A stretch of 64,000 nucleotides of DNA from Maribacter spongiicola (GTDB taxonomy: Bacteria; Bacteroidota; Bacteroidia; Flavobacteriales; Flavobacteriaceae). The DNA lies in contig NZ_SOAY01000010.1 in the NCBI RefSeq assembly GCF_004364165.1, forward strand, positions 1,019,098-1,083,097, in the 5' to 3' direction. Under the pieces are notes generated by a model. That model saw nothing but the letters and a program-made list of their open reading frames with translations, was not told the origin of the DNA and ran no database searches. Each line of letters begins with the position of its first letter. The first letter of the stretch is position 1. Below are positions 2,338-19,797 of this stretch, piece by piece. The position numbers and the translations under genes are program-made.

Positions 2338-2499
2338 ATGAAATATGAAATTAGCCAAAAGATGCTTGGTTCAGATGAAAGCCTTATTACTAATGGTGAA
2401 ATTATCCAAAGCATAAATAATGCTCTGCGTACTATCGCTGTATTTAAAGTCATGTCTTTGAACTTTAAGTTATTAAAAATTAATCGAACAATGTTTTAG
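2338..2499 (+). CDS. Possible small protein overlapping the 3' end of the coupling-protein gene
   Basis: ATG at 2338 opens 53 codons (starts MKYEISQKMLGSDESL, ends at TAG 2497-2499). It is convergent to and overlaps the last 20 bases of the TraG-like gene, and a purine-rich AAAGAGG lies just upstream. The N-terminal half looks protein-like and the C-terminal half is basic. No family recognised; it may be chance. Confidence 0.3.
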   Translation: MKYEISQKMLGSDESLITNGEIIQSINNALRTIAVFKVMSLNFKLLKINRTMF

Positions 2500-4333: not shown

Positions 4334-4344
4334 ATTATTTTGTT

Positions 4345-5235
4345 TTAAATTCCTAATTCGTTTTGTGAGTTTTTTGTTTTGGCTATTTCATTATCCTTCT
4401 CGATTGTTTTTATGACTTTGGCTTTTTCTGAAGGACTGCCATTTTTCAAAATATTTTGATTTTGAAATTTTTCTATTTCCTGTCGCTTATATTGAAATTG
4501 TTGGTCAAATGCTTTTTCATTGGCTTGAATCCATTCTTTTCTGTCAAATCCAACTTTATATTCATTGCCTCCTATTTTTCTAGTCTTATTACGTTCGTTA
4601 GCCATAGGCGAAAGCTTTAGTTTTTGAGTTTTATCTTTTCTTGAAACTATAAGGTGAACATGGCTTTGTAAACCTTTTTTATATTCACCAGACTTAACTT
4701 TACCCTGCTGTACTTCTTTATCTGTACCCTTATATTTTCTCATGTGCTCAACCTTACCATAGTAGACCAAATCTTTTCCTGTTTCTAAGCCTTTGTCCTT
4801 ACGGTTAAAATTTTTCGCATAATTGTCCATAACCTTTCTTGCATAGTCCTGTATAGCTTTATTATAGGCTTTGAATTCTTTTACATTCAAGTCTTTGATG
4901 TTCTCGATATTTCTGCCCGTTACCATCTTAGCTATTTGCTGCTGTTCTTTTTCACTGAAATTGATTGTTGGAGCGAAAAATTTAGCGTCTTCTTTTCCTA
5001 ACTTCTTTTTATTATTATCAATACTTGAGATGACTTCTGTATGACTGACATCAGATTTTTCATGAGTAAAAAACTGTTGTTTCATCGATTCAATATTCAT
5101 TTTCTTGTCCTGGTCTTTTTCCTGGTCCGACATCTTATCCAATTCCATATTTTCCTTTTCTAAATAGTTGGCTAAACTTGAACAAGAACCCGTATTATTT
5201 CCTCCAGATGAGCTATGTACTTTAGATATTGGCAT
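4345..5235 (-). CDS. Relaxase / mobilisation protein (Bacteroidota MobB-type, DUF5712-like)
   Basis: Relaxases nick one strand at oriT and lead it into the recipient. The N-terminus (GSCSSLANYLEKEN, near 17-30) is the usual start of Bacteroidota mobilisation relaxases, with Tyr25 a candidate nucleophile. The metal-binding histidine motif is HVHLIVSRKD (193-202), and EH at 164-165 lies upstream. The remainder is a basic helical tail. The start is ATG at 5233-5235; a GTG one codon upstream overlaps the TAG of the preceding gene (TAGTGATG), so translation is likely coupled to it. The coupling protein follows 11 bases downstream. Confidence 0.82.
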   Translation of the reverse strand: MPISKVHSSSGGNNTGSCSSLANYLEKENMELDKMSDQEKDQDKKMNIESMKQQFFTHEKSDVSHTEVISSIDNNKKKLGKEDAKFFAPTINFSEKEQQQIAKMVTGRNIENIKDLNVKEFKAYNKAIQDYARKVMDNYAKNFNRKDKGLETGKDLVYYGKVEHMRKYKGTDKEVQQGKVKSGEYKKGLQSHVHLIVSRKDKTQKLKLSPMANERNKTRKIGGNEYKVGFDRKEWIQANEKAFDQQFQYKRQEIEKFQNQNILKNGSPSEKAKVIKTIEKDNEIAKTKNSQNELGI

Positions 5236-5237
5236 CA

Positions 5238-5690
5238 CTATTTAAGTATCGATTGTACTCTGTTCAGTAAGCCAGTTTTATTTTTAGAATCTAAAAACAG
5301 AACTACCTCTAAATGCACCTGTCTTTGCTTTCTAATCTCCATTAGAATGTTATCGAGCTTGTCATTCGTTTCGTTGAGTTTAGAGGTTAAAAAATCTCTT
5401 TCTGCATGTACACGGTCATCATTAGATTTATGATATTGGTAAATGTCGGCACGCATAGGTTTCAAAATATCTCGTTCTTGAACCTTTAAAAAAGAGACAA
5501 TTCTATTGTCTAACTTTTTAACCAATATGGACGGATTATCCTTTAATGGTTCATTAGGATTGATACCAGTTTTCTTAAAAAACTGAATCATAGAACCTAC
5601 TAATTGTCCGAAATTAGAATTGAATTGAACTACCAATTTAGAAAGGTCTTTATGGGCGATTTCATTAACTAAGATGCTTTTTTTAGACAT
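5238..5690 (-). CDS. BfmA/BtgA-type mobilisation accessory protein
   Basis: A 150-residue protein directly upstream of the relaxase, with the composition and position of the BfmA/BtgA accessory proteins of Bacteroides mobilisable elements, which bind oriT and help the relaxase. The N-terminal 40 residues (VNEIAHKDLSKLVVQFNSNF) fit a small DNA-binding domain, and residues 90-140 (LTSKLNETNDKLDNILMEIRK and after) form a coiled coil. Its stop overlaps the alternative GTG start of the relaxase. The 120 bases upstream carry no gene and lead to a large hairpin, a reasonable place for oriT. Confidence 0.75.
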   Translation of the reverse strand: MSKKSILVNEIAHKDLSKLVVQFNSNFGQLVGSMIQFFKKTGINPNEPLKDNPSILVKKLDNRIVSFLKVQERDILKPMRADIYQYHKSNDDRVHAERDFLTSKLNETNDKLDNILMEIRKQRQVHLEVVLFLDSKNKTGLLNRVQSILK

Positions 5691-5809
5691 GGTTTATATT
5701 TTAAAGTGCTTATTATCAATTGTATAGATGCTATTTTATAAATATTCTATAAATGGCTATATGAACTAGTAGAATTAAATACCTGAATATGAGTTGTTTA
5801 GCCTCGCAG

Positions 5810-5850
5810 AGCAAGTCGGAGACAGGGGTATCGCCCCTGTCCGACTTGCT
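5810..5850. other. Long interrupted hairpin, candidate oriT or terminator
   Basis: Arms AGCAAGTCG (5810-5818) and CGACTTGCT (5842-5850) enclose a second stem GACAGGGG (5821-5828) / CCCCTGTC (5834-5841), with a GA bulge and a 5-base loop. The GC-rich stem is striking in AT-rich DNA. A T-rich stretch (TTCTTTTT) follows on the plus strand, but no plus-strand gene ends here; the primase gene ends 7 bases away on the minus strand and has no T run on its side. Its position in the 166-base gap just upstream of the mobilisation genes fits an oriT. Confidence 0.5.
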
Positions 5851-5856
5851 TTCTTT

Positions 5857-6714
5857 TTAAGAAACCTCCACTAAGTAGTCATTCACATCTTTGAAGGGTT
5901 CATATTTAGAAGAGCAATCTTGGGCAAAAGAATATTTTTCCTTTACTAGATTGGTTGTTCTTTTACCGGCATCATCGTTATCTAAGTAGCAATCTATATG
6001 GCTATATTTAGATAAAATTGTCCAGCAATTTTTCAGTTGTGAAATGGAATTTAAAATCAAATAATCTTCATCTGTATTTCTTGAAAAAAGCTCTTTGTAG
6101 GATAAGAAATCTAAAAAGCCTTCGAAGAGAAGTAGCTTTTGATTTCCATTATTAAAATGTGTTACTCCCTTGTTGCCTAGACATCCTTTAAAATATTTAT
6201 TGCGTATTTCATAGCCACCTACATCGTTTTTAAAAGCTATTGCAAAATAGGTTTTGCCATTAATGGTGTAATGAATTTCTTGGCAATAGGTCAACGCAAC
6301 TCTCGCAGTAATACGTCTCATAATCAAATACCATAGTAAGACATCATTTTCCAAATCAATGACCTTTTCAATAGTGTAATTTGGTGTCAAATCTTGTGCG
6401 GAAACGGTCGGCTTTTGAAAAGAAAAACTATTTGAATTGCTTAGAAATTCTAAAGTTTCTTTTATAGTGTAACCAGAAATTTTAATAACTAAATCAATTA
6501 CATTTCCACCGACAGCTTCGCCATGATCATACCACCGGTTAAGTTTTAAGTCCACTTTAAACGATGGCGTTTTCTCAGATCTGAACGGACTAAGAAACCA
6601 ACATTCTTTTTCTTTTGTTTTTTTAGGATAAAAACCAAGCCTTTGTAGTGTATCTATAATAGATATATCTCTAGCTGTTTTACAGTCTAGGTTATGATGT
6701 TTTTCATTTTTCAT
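5857..6714 (-). CDS. DNA primase with CHC2 zinc-finger and TOPRIM domains
   Basis: A 285-residue mobile-element primase. The N-terminal part carries the CHC2-type core: C38-W-F-L-S-P-F-R-S-E-K-T-P-S-F (38-52), then the N-x-W-x-D-x-G and GGNVIDLV (69-76) segments. The TOPRIM half shows LLFEGFLDFLS (195-205, catalytic Glu198) and CYLDNDDAGKRTT (242-254, acidic D245/D247). It is far shorter than chromosomal DnaG (around 600-650 residues) and lacks the DnaB-interaction domain, as in plasmid and mobilisable-element primases. It would prime single-stranded DNA after transfer or during element replication. The SF3-like helicase gene lies 195 bases upstream. Confidence 0.88.
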   Translation of the reverse strand: MKNEKHHNLDCKTARDISIIDTLQRLGFYPKKTKEKECWFLSPFRSEKTPSFKVDLKLNRWYDHGEAVGGNVIDLVIKISGYTIKETLEFLSNSNSFSFQKPTVSAQDLTPNYTIEKVIDLENDVLLWYLIMRRITARVALTYCQEIHYTINGKTYFAIAFKNDVGGYEIRNKYFKGCLGNKGVTHFNNGNQKLLLFEGFLDFLSYKELFSRNTDEDYLILNSISQLKNCWTILSKYSHIDCYLDNDDAGKRTTNLVKEKYSFAQDCSSKYEPFKDVNDYLVEVS

Positions 6715-6935
6715 GATTAATAGTGTTTTAAAATTAAAATTGAGGTTTTGATGATAATTGTTGATATTAGCAGTATGAATGGGCTTTGCTCAATTCATCA
6801 TTATTTCATCAATCATCAAAAAGCCCTTTTTTCTTCATCAGTATTTTTTTGATGATAGTTTGATGATAAAATGATGACGATGTAGTTATTTGATTTTCAA
6901 TGACTACAATCACTCTATCATCATTTCATCATAAA
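6715..6935. repeat. TGATGA-rich iteron-like block, candidate replication origin
   Basis: Short TGATGA/TCATCA units recur on both strands: in TCATCATTATTTCATCAATC (6797-6816), in TTGATGATAGTTTGATGAT (around 6848-6866), in ATGATGACGATG just after, and again as TATCATCATTTCATCATAA over the end of the helicase gene. GGGCTTT (6781-6787) and AAAGCCC (6820-6826) form a stem around the first cluster, followed by a T run. Repeats of this kind between a replicative helicase and a primase suggest initiator binding sites, though no Rep initiator was identified. Confidence 0.45.
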
Positions 6936-8121
6936 TCTTAAGTATATAGTCTTTCTTAATTGTGAAGTATCTCCCTTTACGATCTATCTGAACAAATTCA
7001 CCATAACTTGTATATTCAAAACCTTGATAAGAATTAGCATTATCAGAAGGTATTAGGTTCCATTTCTTTTTTAGAATCTTTCGAATATCATTCATCGCAA
7101 AATGCTTTTTGCGTGACTTGCCTAAATTCGAAACAACTTCTCTAGGTGTTGCTTTTAATTGATCTTCGGCAAATGAGTCAAACAGCTCGTAGAACAAGAA
7201 TATCATTTCACGTTCTATTTCGTTATTATTAAGCCATACCAGTTTTTGTAATGCTTCTGTTTTTAGTTGCTTAGGTGTAAACCACATTCGGGTGGTTTTA
7301 GGTGTACTAAAGGGTCTATCGATTAAGTATTGAAGAAAGGCAGGTATTTCTTTGTATAGTTTGTTTAGATACTCTGTGTCTTCCGTTTCAAACGGAATAA
7401 CCTTACGAACCCAAAACCGTATCTCGTCACTATCTATAAGAATAAAGGTGTCTTCATTGTTACTGCATAAAATGAATTTGCCAAAGAATTCAATTTCTTC
7501 CCTGTCCTTACCTTTAGCTTCAACTTTATCCTTATCTGTAGTAGAGAGGTATTTAAGCCTTTCGGTAATTTCCTTTTTATCAAAGAAGACTTCATCAACA
7601 GCTATTATGGTTTTACTTGCCCAATCGGCATTGAATTGACTGGAGAAACTATCACCTTTTATATAGGTCATGTTCTCACCGAATATAGCTTTAAGCCATT
7701 TAATAAATGTGCTTTTTCCAGTACCTCGTTCTTTACTTACTAAGCAAAGTATAGGTAGTATTTGAGTGGGCTTCATGAAAATGAGCTTCAAATAGTCCAA
7801 ACCTAGTTCTTGCTGCTCGCCAAAGATGTGCTTCACAAAATCTATAGATTTCTCAACACTACCTTTTTTTGGTTTTTGTGGCAACTCATGATAGGTATTG
7901 TAAAAAGTACCTAGTATTTGCTGATAGTTTAAATGATCGGGTATACAGCAAAAACCATCTAGCTTGGGTATATCAGATAAAAATACCTTACCGTGATCGG
8001 CAATAATAGTATCCTTGTTCCATCGAACCATGACGGGTACGGTGTCACCAGATATTAAGGGTCTCTCAATGTGTTTGTGATAAACAGTTCCAATTCTTAA
8101 ATAGGGTGCTTTCTTTTTCAT
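6910..8121 (-). CDS. SF3-like / VapE-type replicative helicase of the mobile element
   Basis: A 403-residue protein of the primase-helicase / DUF5906 type found on phages and integrative elements. The ATPase core is clear: Walker A ERGTGKST (131-138), Walker B IIAVDEV (172-178), and the sensor-like strand FILCSNNED (near 217-225). The C-terminal 100 residues (EVVSNLGKSRKKHFAMNDI and after) look like a small winged-helix DNA-binding domain. No primase active site is visible, so priming probably comes from the CHC2 primase gene downstream. The gene begins 6 bases after the excisionase-like gene, and its 3' end contributes to the TGATGA repeat block. Confidence 0.82.
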   Translation of the reverse strand: MKKKAPYLRIGTVYHKHIERPLISGDTVPVMVRWNKDTIIADHGKVFLSDIPKLDGFCCIPDHLNYQQILGTFYNTYHELPQKPKKGSVEKSIDFVKHIFGEQQELGLDYLKLIFMKPTQILPILCLVSKERGTGKSTFIKWLKAIFGENMTYIKGDSFSSQFNADWASKTIIAVDEVFFDKKEITERLKYLSTTDKDKVEAKGKDREEIEFFGKFILCSNNEDTFILIDSDEIRFWVRKVIPFETEDTEYLNKLYKEIPAFLQYLIDRPFSTPKTTRMWFTPKQLKTEALQKLVWLNNNEIEREMIFLFYELFDSFAEDQLKATPREVVSNLGKSRKKHFAMNDIRKILKKKWNLIPSDNANSYQGFEYTSYGEFVQIDRKGRYFTIKKDYILKIYDEMMIE

Positions 8122-8127
8122 AGCACT

Positions 8128-8430
8128 CTATTTTCTTGCAGACTTAATTAAACTGTTATTCTTTCTTGCTAAAGCAAGTAATTCACTTTTAGAAAAGAAG
8201 ATTGATCTGCCTATTTGAAAGTAGGGTACATGCCCTTTTTTCTTCCAGGCTATTAATGAGGTTACAGAGATACCTAGAAACTGTGCAGCTTCTTTTTGCG
8301 ATAGGCGGTCTTCTTTGGGTAAGTTAGAATTACTTTCAATGATTTCTGTTTTACGAACTTCATCTATAACGAGACGAACAGTTCGTTCTAAATCTTTTTT
8401 GTTGAAACCAAATAGAATAGAGTTTGACAT
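8128..8430 (-). CDS. Excisionase-like helix-turn-helix protein
   Basis: A 100-residue protein with a MerR/excisionase-type (HTH_17) domain at about 44-92: LSQKEAAQFLGIS, then SLIAWKKKGHVPYFQIGR and a C-terminal SELLAL helix. Such proteins direct integrase towards excision and often also regulate replication genes. It is the first gene of the minus-strand replication module (helicase, primase) and is divergent from the restriction operon. A partner integrase is not present in the window. Confidence 0.82.
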   Translation of the reverse strand: MSNSILFGFNKKDLERTVRLVIDEVRKTEIIESNSNLPKEDRLSQKEAAQFLGISVTSLIAWKKKGHVPYFQIGRSIFFSKSELLALARKNNSLIKSARK

Positions 8431-8662
8431 AATTGAACTTGTTTTAGTGTTATACTTTACAAAGGTTCAATCTATCTAGAGTTATTAAAACCCAACTCAA
8501 TGAGGGTGGGGGATTGGGGGAATTATATTATTTTCATCTGATAAGATTCTTGTATATATTGTGAAATATACGGTTTTCCGTAATTTCTTAAGTGACCATT
8601 TAATTAACTTAGTCGTTTACACTAAATGGTGTATATGATAATTTAAACTAACTATTTGATTA
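8431..8662. promoter_or_regulatory. Divergent control region between excisionase and restriction operon
   Basis: This 232-base gap must drive both the minus-strand replication module and the plus-strand nuclease/hsd operon. It holds an inverted repeat ACCATTTA ... TAAATGGT (about 8597-8632, 20-base loop) and a small palindrome TACGG-TTTT-CCGTA (about 8570-8583), either of which could be an operator. A G-rich run (GGGTGGGGGATTGGGGG) lies near 8505-8520. No exact TAnnTTTG box was found. Confidence 0.45.
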
Positions 8663-9418
8663 ATGGATGCTGAAAATTTCAAAAAATGGCTAGAATTCAA
8701 TGGTAAGCCAAAAGTTACTATACAAAATAGAATATCGAATTGTAGAAATGTTGAAAATTATGAAGGTGATTTAGATGAACATTTTAGAAAGGATTATGGT
8801 CTGTCTTTACTAGCTAAACTTTCTTATTCGGCAGAAGATGAGAGAAATAATGCTCCTTCGACGCACAATATTCCAATTCAAGGAAATATTAGAAATGGCT
8901 CTGCAACTTTAAAACAGGCTACCAATCTTTATATGGCTTTCAAAAAAGATAAAGGTTCAGATTTTTTAGAGTTTAGTTCTTTGTCAAATATCGAAAATGA
9001 TTTTTCTGAAGACGACGATAATGACCCTATAAATAATATAACCAATTTTAGTTATGAGAAAGATTTAAAAAATTCAATGGTAACTCAAGTTGATGAATTA
9101 TTTCCTGAGTATAAAATATATGGTGAAAACAATGAGGGAATAGAGTACTTAATAGAAGGCAAAAGAATAGATTTACTATTAGAAAAAAAAGATAGTAGTT
9201 TACTTGCAATTGAATTAAAATCAGGTGTAGCTACTTTTAAAGCCTTTGGGCAAATATCAATGTATTTAGGGTTGCTAATGGATAAATTTCCAAATAAATC
9301 AATATCAGGTTGTATTATAGCAGGTGAAATAGATAGCTCTTTAAAAAATGCGGCACGTATTTCTCAACTAATTACTTTGAAAACTTATAAAATGAGATTA
9401 GAACTTTTAAACAATTAA
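8663..9418 (+). CDS. PD-(D/E)XK nuclease, NucS-like, upstream of the hsd genes
   Basis: A 251-residue two-part protein. Residues 130-205 carry a complete PD-(D/E)XK core like that of NucS-type nucleases: Glu132 in YEKDLK, D170 in GKRIDLLL, E184-L-K186 in AIELKSG, and Q197 in GQISMYLG. Residues 1-95 form a separate helical N-terminal domain (FKKWLEFNG, NRISNCRNVE, HNIPIQGNIRNGSATL) that resembles modules I have seen in front of other bacterial restriction-type nucleases; this is an impression, not a match. A very acidic linker (115-122) joins the two. It is the first gene of the operon and ends 26 bases before hsdM, so a role beside the type I enzyme in defence is likely. Confidence 0.78.
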   Translation: MDAENFKKWLEFNGKPKVTIQNRISNCRNVENYEGDLDEHFRKDYGLSLLAKLSYSAEDERNNAPSTHNIPIQGNIRNGSATLKQATNLYMAFKKDKGSDFLEFSSLSNIENDFSEDDDNDPINNITNFSYEKDLKNSMVTQVDELFPEYKIYGENNEGIEYLIEGKRIDLLLEKKDSSLLAIELKSGVATFKAFGQISMYLGLLMDKFPNKSISGCIIAGEIDSSLKNAARISQLITLKTYKMRLELLNN

Positions 9419-9444
9419 AATTTCTATTAAATCGTATAAAAATA

Positions 9445-12207
9445 ATGAACAAACAACAACTAGCTGCTAAAATATGGGAATCTGCAAACCAAATGCGTTC
9501 TAAAATTGAAGCAAATGAATACAAGGATTACATACTTGGATTCATCTTTTACAAATACCTATCTGAGAAACAAATACAGTTCGCTAAAAATCAAGATTTC
9601 ACCCAAGATGATATTGAAGCCCTGAACGAAGAAGATACAGAAACGGTAGAATTTATAAAAAAGAGCATAGGCTACTTTATAGCTTATGATGATTTGTTCA
9701 GCACTTGGATTAGTGCGGGTAAAGATTTTGATGTTTCCAATGTACGCGAAGCGCTCTCTGCCTTTAGCCGATTAATTAGCCCAAAGCACAAAAAGCTTTT
9801 TGACGGTATTTTTAATACGTTGGAGACTGGTTTAAGTAAACTTGGAGATACCGCAGCGAAGCAGACTAAGGCAATTGCAGACTTGCTCCATTTAATTAAG
9901 GGCATCCCTATGGATGGCAAACAAGACTATGATGTTCTTGGATTTATCTACGAATACCTTATTGAAAAATTTGCAGCCAACGCTGGTAAAAAAGCAGGTG
10001 AGTTTTATACACCACATGAGGTATCTGTATTGATGTCAGAAATTATATCGGACCATTTAAAAGACCGAAAGCAAATTGAGATTTATGATTCTTGCAGTGG
10101 CTCCGGTTCGTTGCTTATTAACATAGGTAACAGTATTGCAAAGTATATGGATGATGAAAACAACATCAAATACTATGCACAAGAACTAAAGCAGAACACC
10201 TATAACCTTACCAGAATGAACTTGGTAATGCGTGGTATTTTACCAACGAATATTCAAACCAGAAACGGCGATACTTTAGAAGATGACTGGCCGTTCTTTG
10301 ATGAGAACGACCCTGTGCATACGTATAATGCTTTATATCTTGATGCAGTAGTGTCTAACCCGCCATACTCTCAAAAATGGACACCTACAAATAAAGAAGC
10401 AGACCCACGTTATGCTCGTTTTGGTCTAGCTCCAAAAACGAAGGCGGATTTTGCATTTCTATTACACGACCTTTATCATTTGAAACCAGATGGAATTATG
10501 AATATAGTACTACCACATGGCGTACTTTTTCGTGGTGGTGAAGAAGGTAGAATACGTGAACAACTTATTGAAAAAAACCATATTGATGCCATTATTGGTT
10601 TACCGTCAGGTATCTTTTTTGGCACAGGCATCCCCACTATTATTATAGTTTTAAAACAAAAACGAGCAAATACCGATACGTTAATTATAGATGCCTCAAA
10701 AGGCTTTGTAAAAGATGGCAAAAACAACAAGCTGCGTGCTAGTGATATTAGGCGTATTGCAGATGCCGTACGTGACAGAGCTACTATACCTAAATTTTCT
10801 AGAACTGTAGAACGTGATGAAATACGTAATAACGAATATAACTTAAACATACCACGCTATGTAGACTCTTCAGAGCCTGCTGAAAAATGGGATATCTATG
10901 CATCTATGTTCGGTGGCATTCCGGTAAACGAAATAGATGAACTTCAAAAGTATTGGAATGCGTTCCCAGACTTACGTGAAACATTGTTTGAAAGAACCAC
11001 AGCCGTAAATGCCAAGCTTAAAGTAAACGATTTAAAAGAAAGCATCGCAAATCACCCTAATGTTGAAGCTTTTACGAAAGCGTATACGCTAGCATTTCAA
11101 AATTTTGACCAATACCTTACCCAACATTTAGTTAGTAATACTGCAACCGTTAAGGTTAACAAAGAGAAAACCATACTAAGCAACGATATTTTTAAACGAT
11201 TAGAGACCATACCACTTATTGATAAGTATGAAGCCTACCAACTGTTAGACGATAAGTGGGAAACCATAAAAGTGGACTTAGAGATTATACAGACCGAGGG
11301 CTTTGCTGCTACAGGTGTAGTAGATCCTAATATGGTTATAAAAAAGAAAAACGGTAAAGATACCGAAGTACAAGAAGGTTGGAAGGGTCGTATTATGCCT
11401 TTTAAATTAGTTCAAGAAGAGTATTTAAGTAAAGAACTTGAAGCACTCACTATAAAAGAAAACCGACTTACGGCTATTGCTACAGAGATAGAGGAACTTA
11501 TTGAGGCCTTACCAGAAGAAGAAAAAGATAGTAGCCTGCTCAATGACAAAAGTGATGCCTTTGTTGCTAAAGAATTAAACGAGGTGGTAAAAGAAGCCTA
11601 TGCAGATGTAGAAACTCCTGAGATTAATGCACTTAAAGCCTGCCAAGACTTATTAGATAAAAAAGCACGTAAGCCCGAGAAAGAAGCATTTATCAAAGCC
11701 AATAAAGTTGTACAATGGAAGGCTATGGATGCCAATAAAGATGGAACTTATAGTAAAACTACCGTAAACAAATACTTGTCTCAATTACAGAGCGTTTTTA
11801 CGTTCAAAGAAGACACTTTTGAGTTCCAATTAGTAAAGGCAAGCCAGTTACTTATAGAACAAAAGGACATAAAAGCAAAAATTAAAAAAGAAGCTGCTGC
11901 ACTCCATATGCTTACCAAAGAAACCATTGAAAACTTAACTGCTGCACAGGTAAACAACTTATTAGAACATAAATGGGTAAAACCATTAGTAAAGTCACTA
12001 GATAATATGCCAGATGCGATTATAGATACGCTTTTGAGAAAGCTGCAGCAACTTGCAGATAAATACGCCACTACATATAGTGATGTTGCCAAAGACATTA
12101 AACAAGCCGAAAATGAACTTGCAGGACTATTAGATGATCTTACAGGAAACGAGCACGATATTAAAGCGTTGAGCGAGTTTAAGAACCTTTTAAAAACCGA
12201 TGCGTAA
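9445..12207 (+). CDS. hsdM: Type I restriction-modification methyltransferase subunit, long form
   Basis: HsdM methylates adenine in the target set by HsdS and forms M2S1 and R2M2S1 complexes. The N-terminal helical HsdM_N domain starts at AAKIWESANQMRSKI. The SAM-binding motif I is DSCSGSGSLL (215-224; the usual form is DPACGSG), and the catalytic motif is NPPY (305-308). At 920 residues it is far longer than classical HsdM (about 500-550): residues from about 480 on form an additional, mostly helical, Lys/Glu-rich region with predicted coiled coils. Long HsdM proteins occur in EcoR124-like systems, but the role of the tail is not established. The gene overlaps hsdS by 8 bases. Confidence 0.93.
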   Translation: MNKQQLAAKIWESANQMRSKIEANEYKDYILGFIFYKYLSEKQIQFAKNQDFTQDDIEALNEEDTETVEFIKKSIGYFIAYDDLFSTWISAGKDFDVSNVREALSAFSRLISPKHKKLFDGIFNTLETGLSKLGDTAAKQTKAIADLLHLIKGIPMDGKQDYDVLGFIYEYLIEKFAANAGKKAGEFYTPHEVSVLMSEIISDHLKDRKQIEIYDSCSGSGSLLINIGNSIAKYMDDENNIKYYAQELKQNTYNLTRMNLVMRGILPTNIQTRNGDTLEDDWPFFDENDPVHTYNALYLDAVVSNPPYSQKWTPTNKEADPRYARFGLAPKTKADFAFLLHDLYHLKPDGIMNIVLPHGVLFRGGEEGRIREQLIEKNHIDAIIGLPSGIFFGTGIPTIIIVLKQKRANTDTLIIDASKGFVKDGKNNKLRASDIRRIADAVRDRATIPKFSRTVERDEIRNNEYNLNIPRYVDSSEPAEKWDIYASMFGGIPVNEIDELQKYWNAFPDLRETLFERTTAVNAKLKVNDLKESIANHPNVEAFTKAYTLAFQNFDQYLTQHLVSNTATVKVNKEKTILSNDIFKRLETIPLIDKYEAYQLLDDKWETIKVDLEIIQTEGFAATGVVDPNMVIKKKNGKDTEVQEGWKGRIMPFKLVQEEYLSKELEALTIKENRLTAIATEIEELIEALPEEEKDSSLLNDKSDAFVAKELNEVVKEAYADVETPEINALKACQDLLDKKARKPEKEAFIKANKVVQWKAMDANKDGTYSKTTVNKYLSQLQSVFTFKEDTFEFQLVKASQLLIEQKDIKAKIKKEAAALHMLTKETIENLTAAQVNNLLEHKWVKPLVKSLDNMPDAIIDTLLRKLQQLADKYATTYSDVAKDIKQAENELAGLLDDLTGNEHDIKALSEFKNLLKTDA

Positions 12208-13438
12208 TATGGGAGAACTAAAGAAAAGCCCAGAAGTGCGGTTTAATAGTTATACGGAGGATTGGCAATTAACCCAGCTCAAAGATGTTTCAACTTATGC
12301 GAATGGCGGAAGTTTTGAAGAACACGTAAAAAAAATAGGTAAATATGAATTGATTACATTGAAATCTGTTGATGTAAATGGAAATTTAGTCTCCTCACAG
12401 AAATTTATTGACATCGATGCCCCTACATTACCAAAAGATACTTTAGTAATGATTTTAAGCGAACAATCACCCGGTTTACTTGGTGTTACAGCTCAAATAC
12501 CTGCACCTAATAAATACGTACTTAATCAAAGAGTTGCAGAAATAAGACCAAACGCAGGGATAAACAGTTCATTTCTATCTATGGTCATTAATAGAAACCA
12601 GCAGTATTTTGGAAAGCGAGGAGCTGGCACCAAAGTTCAAAACATTTCTAAACCAAATGTAGAAAACTATACTTTTTATGCGCCAGAGATTAATGAACAA
12701 AACAAAATTAGCAGCCTAATATCCAATCTTGATTCATCGATAAAAAACCACCAAACCCAACTCACCAAACTCAAAAACCTAAAAAAAGCAATGCTAGTTA
12801 AAATGTTTCCTCAAGAGGGCGCTACCGTCCCAGAGATACGTTTTAAAGGCTTTGATGGGGAGTGGGAGAGTTATCAACTTGGTAATATCGGTAACACGTT
12901 TACAGGTCTCTCAGGAAAAACCAAAGAGGACTTCGGAAAAGGAGAAGCACGTTATATTCCTTACACAAACGTTTTCAACAATGAGGTTACTGACAGAAAT
13001 CAATTAGAAAAAATTGAAATTGATGAATCACAGAGTACTGTTCATTATGGTGATGTGCTATTTACGACTTCTTCAGAAACACCAGAAGAGGTTGGTATGT
13101 CTTCCGTATGGTTGGAGAAAGATGAAAACGTTTATTTAAACAGTTTCTGTTTCGGATATCGATTTAAAGAAAAGGTAGATAATTATTTTATAGCTTATTA
13201 TATGCGCTCTCAATATTTTAGGGAAAATATGAAAATTTTAGCTCAGGGTATATCAAGATTTAATATATCTAAAACTAAAGTTATGGAGATAGATATTTTA
13301 CTACCTGAAGAGACAGAACAAACAAAAGTAGGTAAGTATTTCACAAATCTTGATAAGATTATTATTGGACATGAAGTACAACTCAAAAAACTCAACAACA
13401 TTAAAAAAGCCTGCCTTACTAAAATGTTTGTAGCTTAA
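12200..13438 (+). CDS. hsdS: Type I restriction-modification specificity subunit
   Basis: HsdS recognises a split DNA sequence through two target-recognition domains. Both are visible: the first at about 15-175 and the second at about 215-375, each introduced by a PE[VI]RF motif (PEVRF near 11, PEIRF near 212). Each is followed by a conserved helix ending in an almost repeated KLxxxKKAxLxKMF segment (near 187-201 and at the C-terminus), which form the antiparallel spacer coiled coil. Length 412 is normal and no frameshift is seen. The ATG at 12200 overlaps the hsdM stop, so expression is coupled; ATG at 12209 is an alternative start. No second hsdS or inverted partner is present. Confidence 0.93.
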   Translation: MRNMGELKKSPEVRFNSYTEDWQLTQLKDVSTYANGGSFEEHVKKIGKYELITLKSVDVNGNLVSSQKFIDIDAPTLPKDTLVMILSEQSPGLLGVTAQIPAPNKYVLNQRVAEIRPNAGINSSFLSMVINRNQQYFGKRGAGTKVQNISKPNVENYTFYAPEINEQNKISSLISNLDSSIKNHQTQLTKLKNLKKAMLVKMFPQEGATVPEIRFKGFDGEWESYQLGNIGNTFTGLSGKTKEDFGKGEARYIPYTNVFNNEVTDRNQLEKIEIDESQSTVHYGDVLFTTSSETPEEVGMSSVWLEKDENVYLNSFCFGYRFKEKVDNYFIAYYMRSQYFRENMKILAQGISRFNISKTKVMEIDILLPEETEQTKVGKYFTNLDKIIIGHEVQLKKLNNIKKACLTKMFVA

Positions 13439-13467
13439 AACCAACCCAACTAGTACCGTTTATAATT

Positions 13468-16400
13468 ATGATTTTTAATAAAGAAAGTGATTTTGAAGAA
13501 GCTTTAATAACGCATTTATTAAACCAAAGTTGGAAAGGTGGTGTTATTAAAAATCCCACAGAAAAAGACCTGTTAGACAATTGGGCAAACATTCTGTTTG
13601 ATAATAACCGCGATATAGACCGTCTTAATGACCACCCGCTTACAGAGGGAGAGATGCAGCAGATACTAGAGCAGGTAAACACGCTACGTACACCGCTTAA
13701 GCTTAATGGTTTTATAAATGGTAAAACGGTAGCAATTACTAGAGATAATGAAAAGGACAATTTGCATTTTGGTAAAGAGGTAAGTCTTAAAATTTATGAC
13801 CGCCACGAAATTGCTGCTGGGCAAAGTAGGTATCAAATAGCGCAACAACCACAATACAAAAGTAAGTCTAACATACTAGGAGACCGCCGTGGCGATTTGA
13901 TATTGCTAATAAACGGTATGCCACTTATACATATAGAGCTTAAAAAAAGTAACGTGCCGGTAAGTCAGGCATACCACCAAATAGAAAAATACGCACGTGC
14001 AGGGGTCTTTACAGGCTTGTTTTCATTGGTTCAAGTTTTTGTAGCTATGGAGCCAAACGAAACCCGGTACTTTGCAAACCCTGGTCCAGATGGCAAATTC
14101 AACAAAGACTATTATTTTCAATGGGCAGATTTCAACAACGAACCCATAAATTTATGGAGTGACATAGCTAGAGAATTACTCTCTATACCTATGGCGCATC
14201 AGCTAATAGGGTTTTACACCGTACCAGATACTAGTGATGGTGTGCTTAAAGTAATGCGCAGTTACCAGTACTATGCAGCAAGTGCCATAAGTGATAAAGT
14301 AGCAAAAAATGATTGGAAGAGTAGACAGGCATTAGGCGGCTTTATATGGCACACTACGGGTTCTGGTAAAACAATGACCAGTTTTAAAAGTGCACAGCTT
14401 ATAGCCAATTCAAAAGATGCTGACAAAGTTGTCTTCTTAATGGATAGAATAGAGCTTGGCACACAATCTTTAAAAGAATATCGTGGCTTTAGTGATGATA
14501 ACGAAGATGTACAAGCAACGGAGAACACTGGTGTTTTGGTAACGAAACTTAAAAGTGACGACCCCGCAAACACTTTGATAGTTACCTCTATCCAAAAAAT
14601 GAGCCTTATTACCGAGGAGGAAGGAACTAAAGGTGCGGACATAGCCATAATGAATAGTAAGCGAATTGTCTTCATTGTAGATGAAGCACACCGTAGCACT
14701 TTTGGCGACATGTTGATCACTATAAAAAAGACCTTTCCATGGGCTATATTTTTCGGCTTTACAGGCACGCCTATACAAGATGAAAATCAAAAGAAGCTTA
14801 ACACAACCTCCACCGTTTTTGGAGACGAGTTACACCGTTACAGTATTGCAGACGGAATACGGGATGGCAACGTCTTAGGTTTTGACCCATACAAGGTTCT
14901 TACCTATAAAGATAAAGACCTGCGTAGAGCAGTAGCATTAGAAAAATCTAAAGCATCTAGTGTTGAAGATGCATTGGGCGATACAAAAAAGAAGACGATA
15001 TTTCTAAAGTATATGAACGATGTGCCCATGGCAGGTTCTTATAACGATGCAGGTATCTATGAAACAGGTATAGAAGACCATTTGTCTAATGCCCAGTATG
15101 ACCGTGAACAGCACATTTCAAAAGTAGTAGAAGACATTTTGGACAATTGGCTCATATTAAGTCAGAACGGAAAATTCCATGCCATATTTGCTACCAGTAG
15201 TATTCCTATGGCAGTACGTTATTACAGAACGTTGAAGCGTGTTAAGCCAGATTTAAAGACCACAGCTCTATTTGACCCTACTATAGACAATAATGGCAAT
15301 TCTGAATACAAGGAAGATGCGCTTATAGAAATTATAGAAGACTACAATGCGCAATATGACCAAGATTTCAAATTAGCAAATTACGCTAAAATGAAAAAGG
15401 ACATTGCTTCTAGAATGTCTCATAAAACACCATACCTAAGAATAGAGAAAGAACCCGAGAAGCAATTGGATATTTTAATTGTAGTAGACCAAATGCTTAC
15501 AGGTTTTGATAGTAAGTGGGTAAACACTTTGTATATGGACAAGAAAATGGAGTATGAAAACATCATACAAGCATTTTCACGTACCAACCGTCTTTTTAAA
15601 CGTGATGAAAAACCCCATGGCACCATTCGTTATTACCGTAAGCCACATACAATGGAGCGCAATATTAATGCAGCCATAAAATTATATTCTGGTGATAGAG
15701 TAACCGGCTTGTTTGTGGAGCGTTTACCGCACAATTTAAAAGCAATGAATGCAGTGTATGATGAGATTGCACAACTATTTGAGCTAGCGGGAGTTGCTAA
15801 TTTTGAAAAATTACCAGACGACCTTACGGAACGTGGTCGCTTTGCCAAGTTATTTAACACCTTCAATATGTACTTAGAAGCAGCTAAAGTACAACGCTTT
15901 GTGTGGGAAAAACTAGAATATACTTTCGGAGAAGGTAAAAAGAAAGAAACTATTAAGCTAGCTTTAGATAAACATACCTATGATATCTTAGTTTTACGTT
16001 ATAAAGAGCTTTCAGGGTCTGGTGATGGAGGAATGGGTTCTGGCATTCCTTATGAGATTGAAGGACATATAACAGAAATAGACACGGGTAAAATTGATGC
16101 CGATTATATGAACTCTCGTTTTGCAAAATACCTAAAAAAACTGCAAGATGAAGACGTGAGCAAAGAAGAGGTACAACAAACACTTAACGAGTTGCACAAA
16201 TCTTTTGCTAGCCTTACCCAAGAACAACAGAAGTATGCTAATTTATTCCTGCACGATGTACAGCGTGGTAGTGTAAAGCTTGAAGCAGGTAAAACACTTA
16301 AAGACTACATTACACTATACCAGTACAATGCAAAAAATGATCAAATACGAAAAATAGCTACAGTATTAGGTTTAGACGAAACTCGCCTACGTGGTATGAT

Positions 16401-16593
16401 GGATGCAGGTCTTACCGCAAAAAACATCAACGAGTACGGTAGATTCACAGAATTAAAGGATACTGTAGACAAAGAAAAAGCTAAAAATTATTTTGAAACA
16501 TTGGAGGGTAAAAAGCTACCTCAGTTCAAAGTTAATATCCGTGTTGATAGTTTACTGCAGAGTTTTATTTTGGAAGGCGGATTTGAAATTTAG
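13468..16593 (+). CDS. hsdR: Type I restriction-modification endonuclease/translocase subunit
   Basis: HsdR cleaves DNA far from the recognition site after ATP-driven translocation. The N-terminal nuclease shows the PD-(D/E)XK residues D143 (RRGDLILL) and E157-L-K159 (IHIELKKSN). The SF2 motor follows with Walker A TTGSGKT (296-302), DEAH box DEAHRS (405-410), GFTGTP motif III (near 431-436) and the C-terminal motor motif AFSRTNR. Residues beyond about 750 are the helical domain that contacts HsdM. All catalytic motifs are intact and the length (1041) is normal, so the system looks active. It starts 29 bases after hsdS, and the helicase gene follows after 30 bases. Confidence 0.94.
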   Translation: MIFNKESDFEEALITHLLNQSWKGGVIKNPTEKDLLDNWANILFDNNRDIDRLNDHPLTEGEMQQILEQVNTLRTPLKLNGFINGKTVAITRDNEKDNLHFGKEVSLKIYDRHEIAAGQSRYQIAQQPQYKSKSNILGDRRGDLILLINGMPLIHIELKKSNVPVSQAYHQIEKYARAGVFTGLFSLVQVFVAMEPNETRYFANPGPDGKFNKDYYFQWADFNNEPINLWSDIARELLSIPMAHQLIGFYTVPDTSDGVLKVMRSYQYYAASAISDKVAKNDWKSRQALGGFIWHTTGSGKTMTSFKSAQLIANSKDADKVVFLMDRIELGTQSLKEYRGFSDDNEDVQATENTGVLVTKLKSDDPANTLIVTSIQKMSLITEEEGTKGADIAIMNSKRIVFIVDEAHRSTFGDMLITIKKTFPWAIFFGFTGTPIQDENQKKLNTTSTVFGDELHRYSIADGIRDGNVLGFDPYKVLTYKDKDLRRAVALEKSKASSVEDALGDTKKKTIFLKYMNDVPMAGSYNDAGIYETGIEDHLSNAQYDREQHISKVVEDILDNWLILSQNGKFHAIFATSSIPMAVRYYRTLKRVKPDLKTTALFDPTIDNNGNSEYKEDALIEIIEDYNAQYDQDFKLANYAKMKKDIASRMSHKTPYLRIEKEPEKQLDILIVVDQMLTGFDSKWVNTLYMDKKMEYENIIQAFSRTNRLFKRDEKPHGTIRYYRKPHTMERNINAAIKLYSGDRVTGLFVERLPHNLKAMNAVYDEIAQLFELAGVANFEKLPDDLTERGRFAKLFNTFNMYLEAAKVQRFVWEKLEYTFGEGKKKETIKLALDKHTYDILVLRYKELSGSGDGGMGSGIPYEIEGHITEIDTGKIDADYMNSRFAKYLKKLQDEDVSKEEVQQTLNELHKSFASLTQEQQKYANLFLHDVQRGSVKLEAGKTLKDYITLYQYNAKNDQIRKIATVLGLDETRLRGMMDAGLTAKNINEYGRFTELKDTVDKEKAKNYFETLEGKKLPQFKVNIRVDSLLQSFILEGGFEI

Positions 16594-16623
16594 AGCTCTA
16601 TAATAGAATAGTAAATATTAATA

Positions 16624-19596
16624 ATGGATAACGAAAAATGGCTAAAATATTGGAGAAAATGCTTAATTGATTCGCTTAAAAATGATATTAAAATTACGGA
16701 GCAGAAGCATTTTGAAATTAAAAATTTTGATATTAATAATTCGTCAATTTATGACATAGAAAGAATTAATGAGCTTATTAATTACGAGGAGTATTTATTG
16801 AACACACGAAATGGTGTCTTAAAAGATGATATTGATAATTGGATTAAACTAGACAATATTCTAGTTTTAATTGCTCCTTTTAAACTTATTCAAATCGAAC
16901 AATATCGAGCGAACAATAGAAATAAATTTCCCTTTTGGTATTATGCAAATGTCAATAGACAAGGCGTACTTTGGGTGCCAGAAGAAATTGCTCCCTTTTA
17001 TCAAAGAAAGTATTTAGAGCCTCAGGCAGACGAAAGTACAGAGTTTATTTTTTCTTCAGTTGACAAAATTAATCAGCAGAATAATGTAAAAAGAGAAGAT
17101 TTAGATACTTACCAACGTTACATTGATTATATAAAAACAAATTTTAAGAAAGTTGCTGATTATAATATATCAGATTATCGGTGTTATAATCATAAGAAAC
17201 TGAATGATGCAGTGGTAATCCTTTCGGATATTCAAATTGGAGCAGCTCAAAGTATTGTAGATTTATATGATAAAATATTAAAAAATAAAGAACAGCCTGA
17301 ACTATTAAAGGCGTTTATTAATATCGAAAACAACCGAGCAATAAAGCCACTTCAGGTTGAAGAGTTCACCAGTGCTAATCACTTACACATTGGGCAAATG
17401 GGGTATGAGTTTCCCATTTCTATTTCGCAGAGGAAAAGTTTATATACGCTATTAAATTCTGATGATAATGTTTTTGCAATTAATGGGCCACCAGGAACAG
17501 GAAAAACAACCTTGTTACAAAGTATTGTAGCCAATAAAATAGTAGAGACAGCTATTGAAGGCGGAAATCCTGCGGTTATTTTAGCTTGTTCAACTAACAA
17601 TCAGGCGGTAACAAATATTATAGAGAGCTTCTCCAAATCAAATACCAAAGATGGTCCTTTGCGAGGAAGGTGGCTTCCAGACGTTGATGGCTATGCAACC
17701 TATTTACCTGCTAGTGGTAAAAACGAAGATCAACTAAGAGGTATTAACTATAAGAAATTAGTTGGTGGTGGTTTGTTTGGTGATATTGAGAATGAGGAAT
17801 TTGTTGGAAGAGCTTTAGATTTCTATTTAGTAAAGAGTGAGACTTATTTTGGTGAAAATCTAAATATACCAGATACCCTTTTAAAACTTCAATCTGAAAT
17901 AAAGGAAATAAAGTACACTTTAATTCATTCGAAGGAAAAGTGGGAAAACTACTTAAAAGGTGAATCTCTTTTTAAGTCGCTAAAAGTAGATGAAGAGCAG
18001 AAATTCTTTTCTGATAATTTTTTATCGGCAGATCAGTTACGAGACTTGGCAAGGTCATTGCAAAAATCAGAACATGCTATTTTAAGTTATTTCAATTCTG
18101 AATCTATATTTAGAAAGTTGTTCTGTATTCTTGGAATTAAATCATCATTAAGAAGTCGGCAGAATGAATTAAATATTATTTTGAGAGATTCTATTCTTGA
18201 AAATAGAATCAAAGATTATTCTAAAAACTCGCTATTAGAACAATGTAATGCCACTATTAAAACGGTTAGAAAAATTACTAAGCTAACTACTGATTGGGAA
18301 AGTTTTAAGGAGAGAAATGATTTAACGGGAAACCCACCTAGAAATAAGGAGGAGTATTGGGATTTAGAAATGCTCAAAATTAGAAATAAGGTAGCTCCAA
18401 ATTGTTTTTATGACGAGTTAGATGTTAGTATACGGCATAAAGCATTTCAATTGGCTATTCATTACTGGGAAGGAAGATATCTTCAACGATTAGAAAGTGA
18501 TTTAAGAGATCCCAACTTCACAAAAAAAGGTAAATCTACAGTAATCAGTAGATGGCAAAGACATGCTATGCTGACCCCATGTTTTGTTAGTACCTTTTAT
18601 ATGGCTCCGAAATTTTTTAGTTATTACAAGTTTTTACAAAAAGATAATAATGGAAAAGCTGTTTTTGACAATCCTGCTCTATTCAATTTTGTGGATTTAC
18701 TACTAGTTGATGAATCTGGTCAAGTAACGCCAGAAGTAGGTACTGCAATATTTTCATTGGCTAAAAAAGCGGTAGTTGTCGGTGATGTAAAACAGATTGA
18801 GCCCGTATGGAATATATCTAATAAAATTGATGTAGGTAATTTAAAGAACAGTCAACTCATTGTTGATTACGACGATGAGATTTATGAAACACTTTTTGAT
18901 CCAAAGGGATATTTAGCTTCAACTGGTAGTATAATGAAAATGGCTCAAAACGCGAGCAGTTTTAAGGAGCCAGAGTTAGAAGAAAAAGGGGTTATACTAC
19001 AAGAGCATAGAAGGTGTTATAACGAGATTATTAATTATTGTAATGAGTTAGCTTATAATGGTCTTTTAATACCGTTAAAAGGTAGGTCTGGGAACGACTT
19101 ACTATTTCCTCCTATGTACTGCATTCATGTAGAAAGTAATTCGGTTACAAATAATACAAGTAGGCAAAACTATCAAGAAGCAGAAGAGTTGGTCAAATGG
19201 TTGTTGTTGAATAGAAATAGAATCGAAGGCAAGTATGAGATGAAGGTAGAGGAAGCTGTAGGGGTAATAACCCCGTTTACAGGTCAAAAGAATGTTCTAA
19301 GAAGCTTACTAAAGCAAAATGGTATAAATACCAGTATTATGAAATTAGGAACCGTACATGCCTTGCAAGGGGCAGAACGACCTATTATTCTTTTTTCAAT
19401 GGTTTATGGTGATGGTGATTCGGGAACAATGTTCTTTGATAGGGATAATAAACCCAATATGTTGAATGTGGCAGTTTCAAGGGCAAAGGATAATTTTATA
19501 GTCTTTGCGAATACTAAGATTTTAGACAAGAGTAGTAAGAGCCCGTCTGGCATCTTAGCGAATCATTTAAAATACGAGGATAATAGTTTGTCTTAG
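16624..19596 (+). CDS. Large SF1 (AAA_11/AAA_12, Upf1/Dna2-like) helicase linked to the restriction operon
   Basis: A 990-residue superfamily 1 helicase. Motif I is GPPGTGKTT (288-296), motif II is VDESGQ (695-700, with the Ser-Gly form seen in Upf1/Dna2-like helicases), followed by motif III VVGDVKQIEP (near 719-728). Late motifs are GVITPFTGQ (about 880), GTVHALQGAE (about 910) and NVAVSRAKD (near the C-terminus). Residues 1-270 form an N-terminal domain I do not recognise, and a helical insertion of roughly 300 residues separates motif I from motif II. No kinase, nuclease or phospholipase-D signature is seen, which sets it apart from helicase fusions such as Mokosh. The 30-base spacing to hsdR places it in the same operon; a defence role is inferred from context. 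Confidence 0.82.
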   Translation: MDNEKWLKYWRKCLIDSLKNDIKITEQKHFEIKNFDINNSSIYDIERINELINYEEYLLNTRNGVLKDDIDNWIKLDNILVLIAPFKLIQIEQYRANNRNKFPFWYYANVNRQGVLWVPEEIAPFYQRKYLEPQADESTEFIFSSVDKINQQNNVKREDLDTYQRYIDYIKTNFKKVADYNISDYRCYNHKKLNDAVVILSDIQIGAAQSIVDLYDKILKNKEQPELLKAFINIENNRAIKPLQVEEFTSANHLHIGQMGYEFPISISQRKSLYTLLNSDDNVFAINGPPGTGKTTLLQSIVANKIVETAIEGGNPAVILACSTNNQAVTNIIESFSKSNTKDGPLRGRWLPDVDGYATYLPASGKNEDQLRGINYKKLVGGGLFGDIENEEFVGRALDFYLVKSETYFGENLNIPDTLLKLQSEIKEIKYTLIHSKEKWENYLKGESLFKSLKVDEEQKFFSDNFLSADQLRDLARSLQKSEHAILSYFNSESIFRKLFCILGIKSSLRSRQNELNIILRDSILENRIKDYSKNSLLEQCNATIKTVRKITKLTTDWESFKERNDLTGNPPRNKEEYWDLEMLKIRNKVAPNCFYDELDVSIRHKAFQLAIHYWEGRYLQRLESDLRDPNFTKKGKSTVISRWQRHAMLTPCFVSTFYMAPKFFSYYKFLQKDNNGKAVFDNPALFNFVDLLLVDESGQVTPEVGTAIFSLAKKAVVVGDVKQIEPVWNISNKIDVGNLKNSQLIVDYDDEIYETLFDPKGYLASTGSIMKMAQNASSFKEPELEEKGVILQEHRRCYNEIINYCNELAYNGLLIPLKGRSGNDLLFPPMYCIHVESNSVTNNTSRQNYQEAEELVKWLLLNRNRIEGKYEMKVEEAVGVITPFTGQKNVLRSLLKQNGINTSIMKLGTVHALQGAERPIILFSMVYGDGDSGTMFFDRDNKPNMLNVAVSRAKDNFIVFANTKILDKSSKSPSGILANHLKYEDNSLS

Positions 19597-19646
19597 TTAA
19601 GGAAAACTACATTACTTAACTTTTTTTACATCTACTTTACTGAAAA

Positions 19647-19667
19647 GTTGCCCTAAAGGTTGCCCTA
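19647..19667. repeat. Direct repeat GTTGCCCTA x2 near the element end
   Basis: Two copies of GTTGCCCTA at 19647-19655 and 19659-19667, 12 bases apart, lie between the helicase gene and tRNA-Leu. Paired short direct repeats next to a tRNA 3' end are typical of integrase arm-type sites, so this may be part of an att region. They are too short to be conclusive. Confidence 0.35.
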
Positions 19668-19673
19668 TAAAAT

Positions 19674-19709
19674 AAAAAAACCCCTGAAATCAGATGATTT
19701 CAGGGGTTT
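19674..19709 (-). terminator. Terminator of the tRNA-Leu/tRNA-Gly transcript
   Basis: A near-perfect stem, CCCCTGAAATCA (19681-19692) with TGATTTCAGGGG (19695-19706), is followed on the minus strand by a T run. It lies directly after the CCA end of tRNA-Leu. A run of A and T on both sides could also stop the helicase transcript arriving from the left. Confidence 0.85.
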
Positions 19710-19710
19710 G

Positions 19711-19797
19711 TGGTACTCGAGGCGGGACTTGAACCCGCACGCCCCAAAGAGCACAGGATTTTAAGTCCGGCGTGTCTACCAATTCCACCACTCGAGC
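19711..19797 (-). tRNA. tRNA-Leu (anticodon TAA)
   Basis: The minus strand folds as a class II tRNA: acceptor GCTCGAG at the 5' end (19797 downward) pairs with CTCGAGT, the anticodon loop is CTTAAAA, a long variable arm (CTCTTTGGGGC) follows, then GGTTCAAGTCC in the T arm, and CCA is encoded. 87 bases with CCA. Its 3' end points into the accessory region, the usual geometry for an integration target. Confidence 0.96.

Follow-up and report, generated by a model that had tools for sequence, protein, structure and literature searches.

Does a row of five genes for a nuclease, the three subunits of a type I restriction-modification enzyme and a helicase constitute one defence machine, or does it consist of separate modules that stand side by side? 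The question is raised by a stretch of 64,000 nucleotides of Maribacter spongiicola (assembly GCF_004364165.1, contig NZ_SOAY01000010.1, positions 1,019,098 to 1,083,097 of the forward strand), which is referred to in its whole length as the window. The row comprises five plus-strand open reading frames (ORFs) at 8663-19596 with intergenic distances of 26, -8, 29 and 30 bases in the ORF list (Table 1). The original prediction had described this layout, the intactness of the catalytic motifs and the defence setting. The first was borne out by the ORF list and the translations, the second by motifs in the translations and domain matches in Pfam and PADLOC, and the third also proved right. Read by eye, the motifs are NPPY in HsdM, GD-ELK and GSGKT/DEAH in HsdR, GPPGTGKTT, DESGQ, LQEHRR and GTVHALQGAER in the helicase and RIDLL-x10-IELK in the nuclease. 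The further proposal that the five genes form one composite defence system was not supported, as the helicase and the hsd set occur apart. The row is probably defence cargo of a mobile element, made up of modules that would be co-transcribed and would work independently of each other.

Co-transcription of the five genes is plausible from their spacing. The scans for promoters and terminators neither prove nor disprove a single transcript: sigma-70 promoters were found as often as expected from shuffling (48 found, 43.6 expected), which is uninformative, and the Bacteroidetes-type motif TTTG/TAnnTTTG had one match in 8001-19700, within hsdR. An inverted repeat TACAC/GTGTA, noticed by eye at window positions 8618-8633 about 30 bases 5' of the first gene, may be an operator or due to chance. 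The base composition differs among the modules, with a GC content of 28.4% in the nuclease gene, 36.8, 34.1 and 37.8% in hsdM, hsdS and hsdR and 32.6% in the helicase gene, and this was counted in favour of stacked independent cargo. A second occurrence of the five-gene order was not found in the searches of this analysis.

Table 1. Features of the five-gene row and of the mobile element that carries it (positions in the window).
Feature	Position	Strand	Description
Nuclease ORF	8663-9418	+	251 aa; N-terminal domain ~1-100 and NucS_C-like PD-(D/E)XK domain ~121-251
hsdM	9445-12207	+	920 aa; type I methyltransferase with long C-terminal part
hsdS	12200-13438	+	412 aa; specificity subunit, two Methylase_S stretches
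hsdR	13468-16593	+	1041 aa; restriction/translocase subunit, EcoR124-type C terminus
Helicase gene	16624-19596	+	990 aa; UPF1/Senataxin-like SF1 helicase, MkoC-like, without C-terminal PLD nuclease domain
Mobilisation/replication part	2480-8430	-	Pfam: TraG/TraD coupling protein, DUF5712, Toprim/CHC2 primase-like, DUF5906, HTH_17
attR	19666-19727	.	62-bp direct repeat, 2 mismatches; covers the 3' end of tRNA-Leu
tRNA-Leu	19711-19797		3' of the helicase gene

As its domains indicate, hsdM-hsdS-hsdR is an ordinary EcoR124-like set of type IC, and all three subunits are complete by domain and motif. HsdM matched N6_Mtase (E=7e-101) and HsdM_N in Pfam and MTase_I in PADLOC, the two stretches of HsdS matched Methylase_S (E=2.2e-24, Pfam), and HsdR contained HSDR_N, SWI2_SNF2 and EcoR124_C (PF12008, E=9.6e-32) and exceeded the cut-off of TIGR00348 hsdR. 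The set resembles EcoR124 in its HsdM, the two target domains of its HsdS, the nuclease, motor and EcoR124_C parts of its HsdR and the M-S-R order; it differs by the long C-terminal part of HsdM, which is shared by the five close relatives (HsdM of 861-922 aa), and by the two extra genes that flank it. The window HsdM was 92% identical to that of genome G129. Close relatives of HsdR were found via HsdM in G129 (94% identical) and G051 (80%), and via HsdR in G349 (73%), G314 and G309 (both 68%). All five belong to plain hsdM-hsdS-hsdR operons with neither the nuclease nor the helicase within the approximately 20 kb retrieved. The restriction unit is thus complete without the extras in all five, which supports separate modules. 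Additional genes of other kinds, inserted between hsdS and hsdR or flanking the set, were seen in less closely related type I operons from the same phylum, so that extra genes are not unusual in such a setting.

The helicase matched AAA_11/AAA_12 in Pfam, and its best match in PADLOC was MkoC of the Mokosh system (E=4.9e-283, 940.2 bits, model positions 5-971 of 1136, which is the helicase part), as against 99.7 bits for the best MkoA match. It is predicted to have a UPF1/Senataxin-like fold (pLDDT 87.6), and Foldseek matched the model with SETX, UPF1, IGHMBP2, Sen1 and Aquarius. In the portions of the literature consulted, Mokosh type II is defined by a PLD domain, and its helicase domain goes by the name COG1112 (PMC11672841). 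The window helicase resembles type II in aligning with the MkoC model and in having the superfamily 1 (SF1) helicase domain, but lacks the PLD nuclease domain: in the alignment, PLD-bearing relatives extend about 200 residues further with an HxK...D...GSFNW motif that is missing here. Nor does the locus correspond to Mokosh type I, which consists of MkoA and a separate PLD gene, as no HKD/PLD motif was present in the 87 ORF fragments of the 36-kb mobile element that contains the row.

Phylogenetic analysis of 90 sequences placed the window helicase in a clade of 36 rows (SH-aLRT 99), in which the PLD motif was absent from all 36 and which, save for one Campylobacterota and one Myxococcota bin, belongs to the Bacteroidota. 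This tree was made by a quick procedure and its branches are long beyond this clade, and the L022 and L115 proteins in it are identical. A total of 51 rows was called short, including L117, L098 and L121, none of which is in the clade; L098, with 1144 aa, probably owes this call to a missed motif, and the 730-aa ORF of L121 comes from a short contig. In L117 (424-3895) an MkoC-like gene is followed by the PLD domain in the next overlapping ORF and looks short through a frame shift. A recent truncation of the window helicase at the attachment site (its stop lies 69 bases before attR) was considered and rejected, because the PLD motif is absent throughout the clade. In addition, the other 35 rows are 877-1026 aa in length and five aligned members end within a few residues of one another, which also speaks against a recent truncation. 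Eight MkoC-like proteins of Tenacibaculum (L062-L066, L069, L097, L107), of 990-1021 aa, have no PLD motif; T. larymnensis is not among these. Two papers, in the parts consulted, explain Mokosh II of Tenacibaculum by its PLD effector. The titles and abstract openings listed in searches for Mokosh mentioned neither a PLD-less MkoC clade nor an MkoC within a type I operon.

The association of such helicases with type I genes was surveyed at 89 loci, the genome-contig part of which comprises the best 80 of at least 452 confirmed relatives. With 10 of the 14 phmmer queries used for type I genes, matches were obtained in the retrieved flanks of 7 of the 89 loci, and at 3 the helicase gene was contiguous with type I genes; several of the contigs are short or start at the helicase. 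Type I genes may be under-counted, since the queries missed the HsdR of L112, which was recognised by reading and by Pfam. That the helicase would be a regular partner of hsd genes was contradicted at 86 of the 89 loci, where, as far as the 10 queries and the neighbour lists show, it does not adjoin them. No type I match was found in the flanks of the eight nearest helicases (L053-L059 and L103), seven of which are 55-58% identical to that of the window and the eighth (L059) 47%; the contigs of L058 and L059 are short, and L103 adjoins a type IIG enzyme. Helicase relatives occurred in 7 other genomes of the 299 from the family (4 short and 3 long forms), and none of these had any of the other four proteins in the retrieved stretch. 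The two other Maribacter genomes searched lacked this helicase. Relatives of it were present in 77 plasmid records and in none of the viral contigs. Proteins of 372-373 aa with N-termini that look alike by eye (L053:13067-14185, L055:13067-14185, L137:5104-6225; no Pfam match for those of L053 and L137, which were scanned) occur 84 bp 3' of a PLD-less helicase and also beside hsdR.

The three contiguous loci bear on the possibility of a true composite, whose helicase or nuclease would process DNA ends or DNA that escapes the type I enzyme. Marinomonas communis and Marinomonas sp. have the order HsdR-HsdM-HsdS-MkoC, and Halomonas citrativorans has a similar one with hsdS in two pieces (L112:2666-12913, L113:2892-13168 and L099:1449-13519). 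The gap between hsdS and mkoC is 33 and 8 bases in two of these loci, and in L099 the genes overlap. Like the tight spacing in the window, such operons favour a composite. However, the L112 HsdR is of another family, the EcoEI kind (EcoEI_R_C, Pfam), those of L113 and L099 being similar by reading alone, and the three helicases are PLD-bearing and stand on another branch of the tree. Hence the Marinomonas and Halomonas operons are separate joinings and not the same system as that of the window. Together with the flanks of the eight nearest helicases, this makes a true composite highly improbable.

The nuclease presents a less uniform picture. Its match to NucS_C is weak (E=2.4e-5, 24.7 bits against a cut-off of 24, Pfam). 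The PADLOC model PDC-S02 (E=1.8e-17) was matched by residues 103-249 at model positions 153-306 of 308, thus by the C-terminal half only and not over the full length. The protein therefore resembles PDC-S02 and the C-terminal domain of NucS in its PD-(D/E)XK domain, but has a different N-terminal domain. A search of 395 Bacteroidota genomes yielded partial matches in 8 others, 6 to the C-terminal half and 2 to the N-terminal half. The C-terminal half was located in type I loci in three of the six cases (L046, L051, L052), directly 3' of hsdS in L051 and L052 and between hsdS and hsdR in L046; L046 and L051 have hsdM, hsdS and hsdR, and on the 3957-bp contig of L052 hsdS alone is visible (Methylase_S). 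In the retrieved stretches of the other three (L048, L049, L050) there was no match to P0002-P0004 (HsdM/HsdS/HsdR). The N-terminal half was found as a 101-aa gene within a type I operon (L045:9587-9892) and as a 100-aa gene (L047:9838-10140) beside what by eye are a very-short-patch-repair-like nuclease and cytosine methyltransferases. It also opens an AAA ATPase on a Croceicoccus plasmid (L025:7986-10766). This domain of about 100 aa, which has no Pfam match, thus stands as a protein by itself in restriction loci and forms the N-terminus both of an AAA ATPase and of the window nuclease (positions 8663-8960). One full-length relative, 28% identical, is on a Nitrosospira plasmid without an hsd operon; a gene annotated as N-6 DNA methylase lies a few genes away. 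Four plasmid records had parts or the whole of the nuclease and three had the N-terminal domain, and no relative was found in viral contigs. The structure prediction was of very low confidence (mean pLDDT 29.9), and solved structures gave no match. The nuclease appears to join two parts that are often found in restriction loci, without being a fixed partner of the present hsd set. Consequently, the finding that was to speak against a functional unit, that the extra genes occur mostly without hsd genes, holds for the helicase and only in part for the nuclease: 5 of the 8 genomes have one of its domains in a restriction locus, and no full-length relative was found beside an hsd operon.

A type I enzyme could also act as a guardian that restrains the nuclease, the helicase or both until a phage inhibits it. 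In the parts of the reports consulted, the gene of the anticodon nuclease PrrC lies within a type IC operon, and PrrC is freed when the T4 protein Stp inhibits the enzyme, EcoprrI (PMC3874165, PMC12707154). The window hsd set is of the same broad kind as EcoprrI (EcoR124_C), an extra gene would be read with it, and the nuclease domain family is present in the three other type I loci mentioned above. The window, however, has no anticodon nuclease, and its extra genes lie outside hsdMSR rather than between its genes, so that any coupling is putative. As the nuclease is missing from the five loci whose hsd sets are most closely related to that of the window and its domain is also found without HsdM, HsdS or HsdR matches, a guardian role is unlikely.

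The lack of the PLD domain in the helicase could be made good by a nuclease in trans, either the PD-(D/E)XK protein at the front of the row or HsdR. Such an arrangement would resemble Hachiman (HamA nuclease and HamB helicase) in idea only, as the Hachiman helicase belongs to another superfamily. As far as the source was consulted, Hachiman nevertheless shows that a helicase sensor and its nuclease can be separate subunits (PMC12278908). At 4 of the 36 loci of the PLD-less clade a neighbouring gene on the same strand, no more than 120 bp away, codes for a nuclease or HEPN protein (L070 and L075, PDDEXK_4; L078, Mrr_cat; L057, HEPN_Apea); a fifth, L103, has the type IIG gene. Among the PLD-bearing control loci, Pfam detected neighbours of the HNH and SNase kinds at L091 and a ResIII neighbour at L104. 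Stand-alone nuclease or HEPN neighbours were thus present at 4 of 36 loci without and 1 of 39 loci with the PLD domain (p=0.19); when restriction enzymes were counted too, the figures were 6 of 36 and 5 of 39 (p=0.75). In all, 16 of 19 control ORFs and 13 of 25 neighbours of the short forms were scanned with Pfam. A control by eye (4/36 versus 0/39, p=0.048) was dropped, because Pfam on the control neighbours removed the significance. The completed control gives no support for a special pairing of helicase and nuclease. In the locus L091:273-5029, from an Anaerolineae bin, the HNH and staphylococcal-nuclease-like genes lie within 80 bp of the PLD-bearing MkoC relative. Many members of the Tenacibaculum/Polaribacter/Wenyingzhuangia branch look solo, and the nuclease and helicase genes of the window are not adjacent. 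A partnership in trans is therefore very unlikely, even with the PLD domain absent throughout the clade. The broader proposal that the PLD-less MkoC-like helicases constitute a defence system separate from Mokosh II, a UPF1-like module with no covalently attached nuclease that defends alone or uses an adjacent one (PDDEXK_4, Mrr, HEPN or type IIG in relatives), was already doubtful and became distinctly unlikely with the completed control. If it were true, the window would be a natural restriction-plus-helicase machine in which the helicase uses the front nuclease or the whole type I enzyme.

The row forms the right-hand cargo of a 36-kb, probably mobilisable element whose integration site is the 3' end of tRNA-Leu. 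Of the 62-bp repeat, the attL copy starts 36,067 bp upstream of attR, outside the window, and is adjoined by a tyrosine integrase-like ORF (L002:3822-5057, by eye). Beyond attR, tRNA-Gly lies beside tRNA-Leu on the other strand, followed by an ORF that reads as mutS. The repeat and the coupling protein were identified by tools and the integrase by eye, and DUF5712 is the putative relaxase. Relatives of DUF5906 were found in 30 other genomes of 249 searched; in the 12 retrieved, none of the five proteins was among the first 16 ORFs on the cargo side. The same element seems to contain, upstream of the window, SusC/SusD, sulfatase and glycosidase genes (L002:9964-18899, by eye) and may bring both sugar use and defence. 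The position on a putatively mobilisable element would also suit a non-defence role, in which the genes would aid establishment of the element by self-methylation, post-segregational killing or help in replication. All five genes, however, match known or candidate defence families, the first over its C-terminal half only, and a non-defence role is extremely improbable.

If the row is defence cargo of independent modules, as we favour, HsdMSR would methylate and restrict at its own bipartite site, as expected from its family. The helicase, whose fold is predicted and which has no nuclease part, would attach to phage nucleic acid and remodel it while translocating at the expense of ATP, and the small nuclease might be an additional restriction or cell-shutdown effector. 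The modules would be read together and act separately, and the mobile element would profit from keeping phages out. What the data show directly is which genes are present, where the element begins and ends, which domains the proteins have and that the hsd set and the helicase also occur apart; co-transcription, a defence function and separate action are inferred. Several points weigh against this explanation. The five genes are as tightly spaced as those of a real operon, the two halves of the nuclease occur, separately, in restriction loci for 5 of the 8 other genomes, and contiguous type I and MkoC operons do exist (two in Marinomonas, one in Halomonas). In addition, PrrC with EcoprrI demonstrates that defence modules within one operon can be coupled.

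Stacked cargo is a common mode of carrying defence for mobile elements, and the five-gene row is probably an instance of it. The PADLOC model of MkoC scores very high on a protein without a nuclease domain, in a clade without one. This raises the question how an MkoC-like helicase could defend without a nuclease, which is directly testable.

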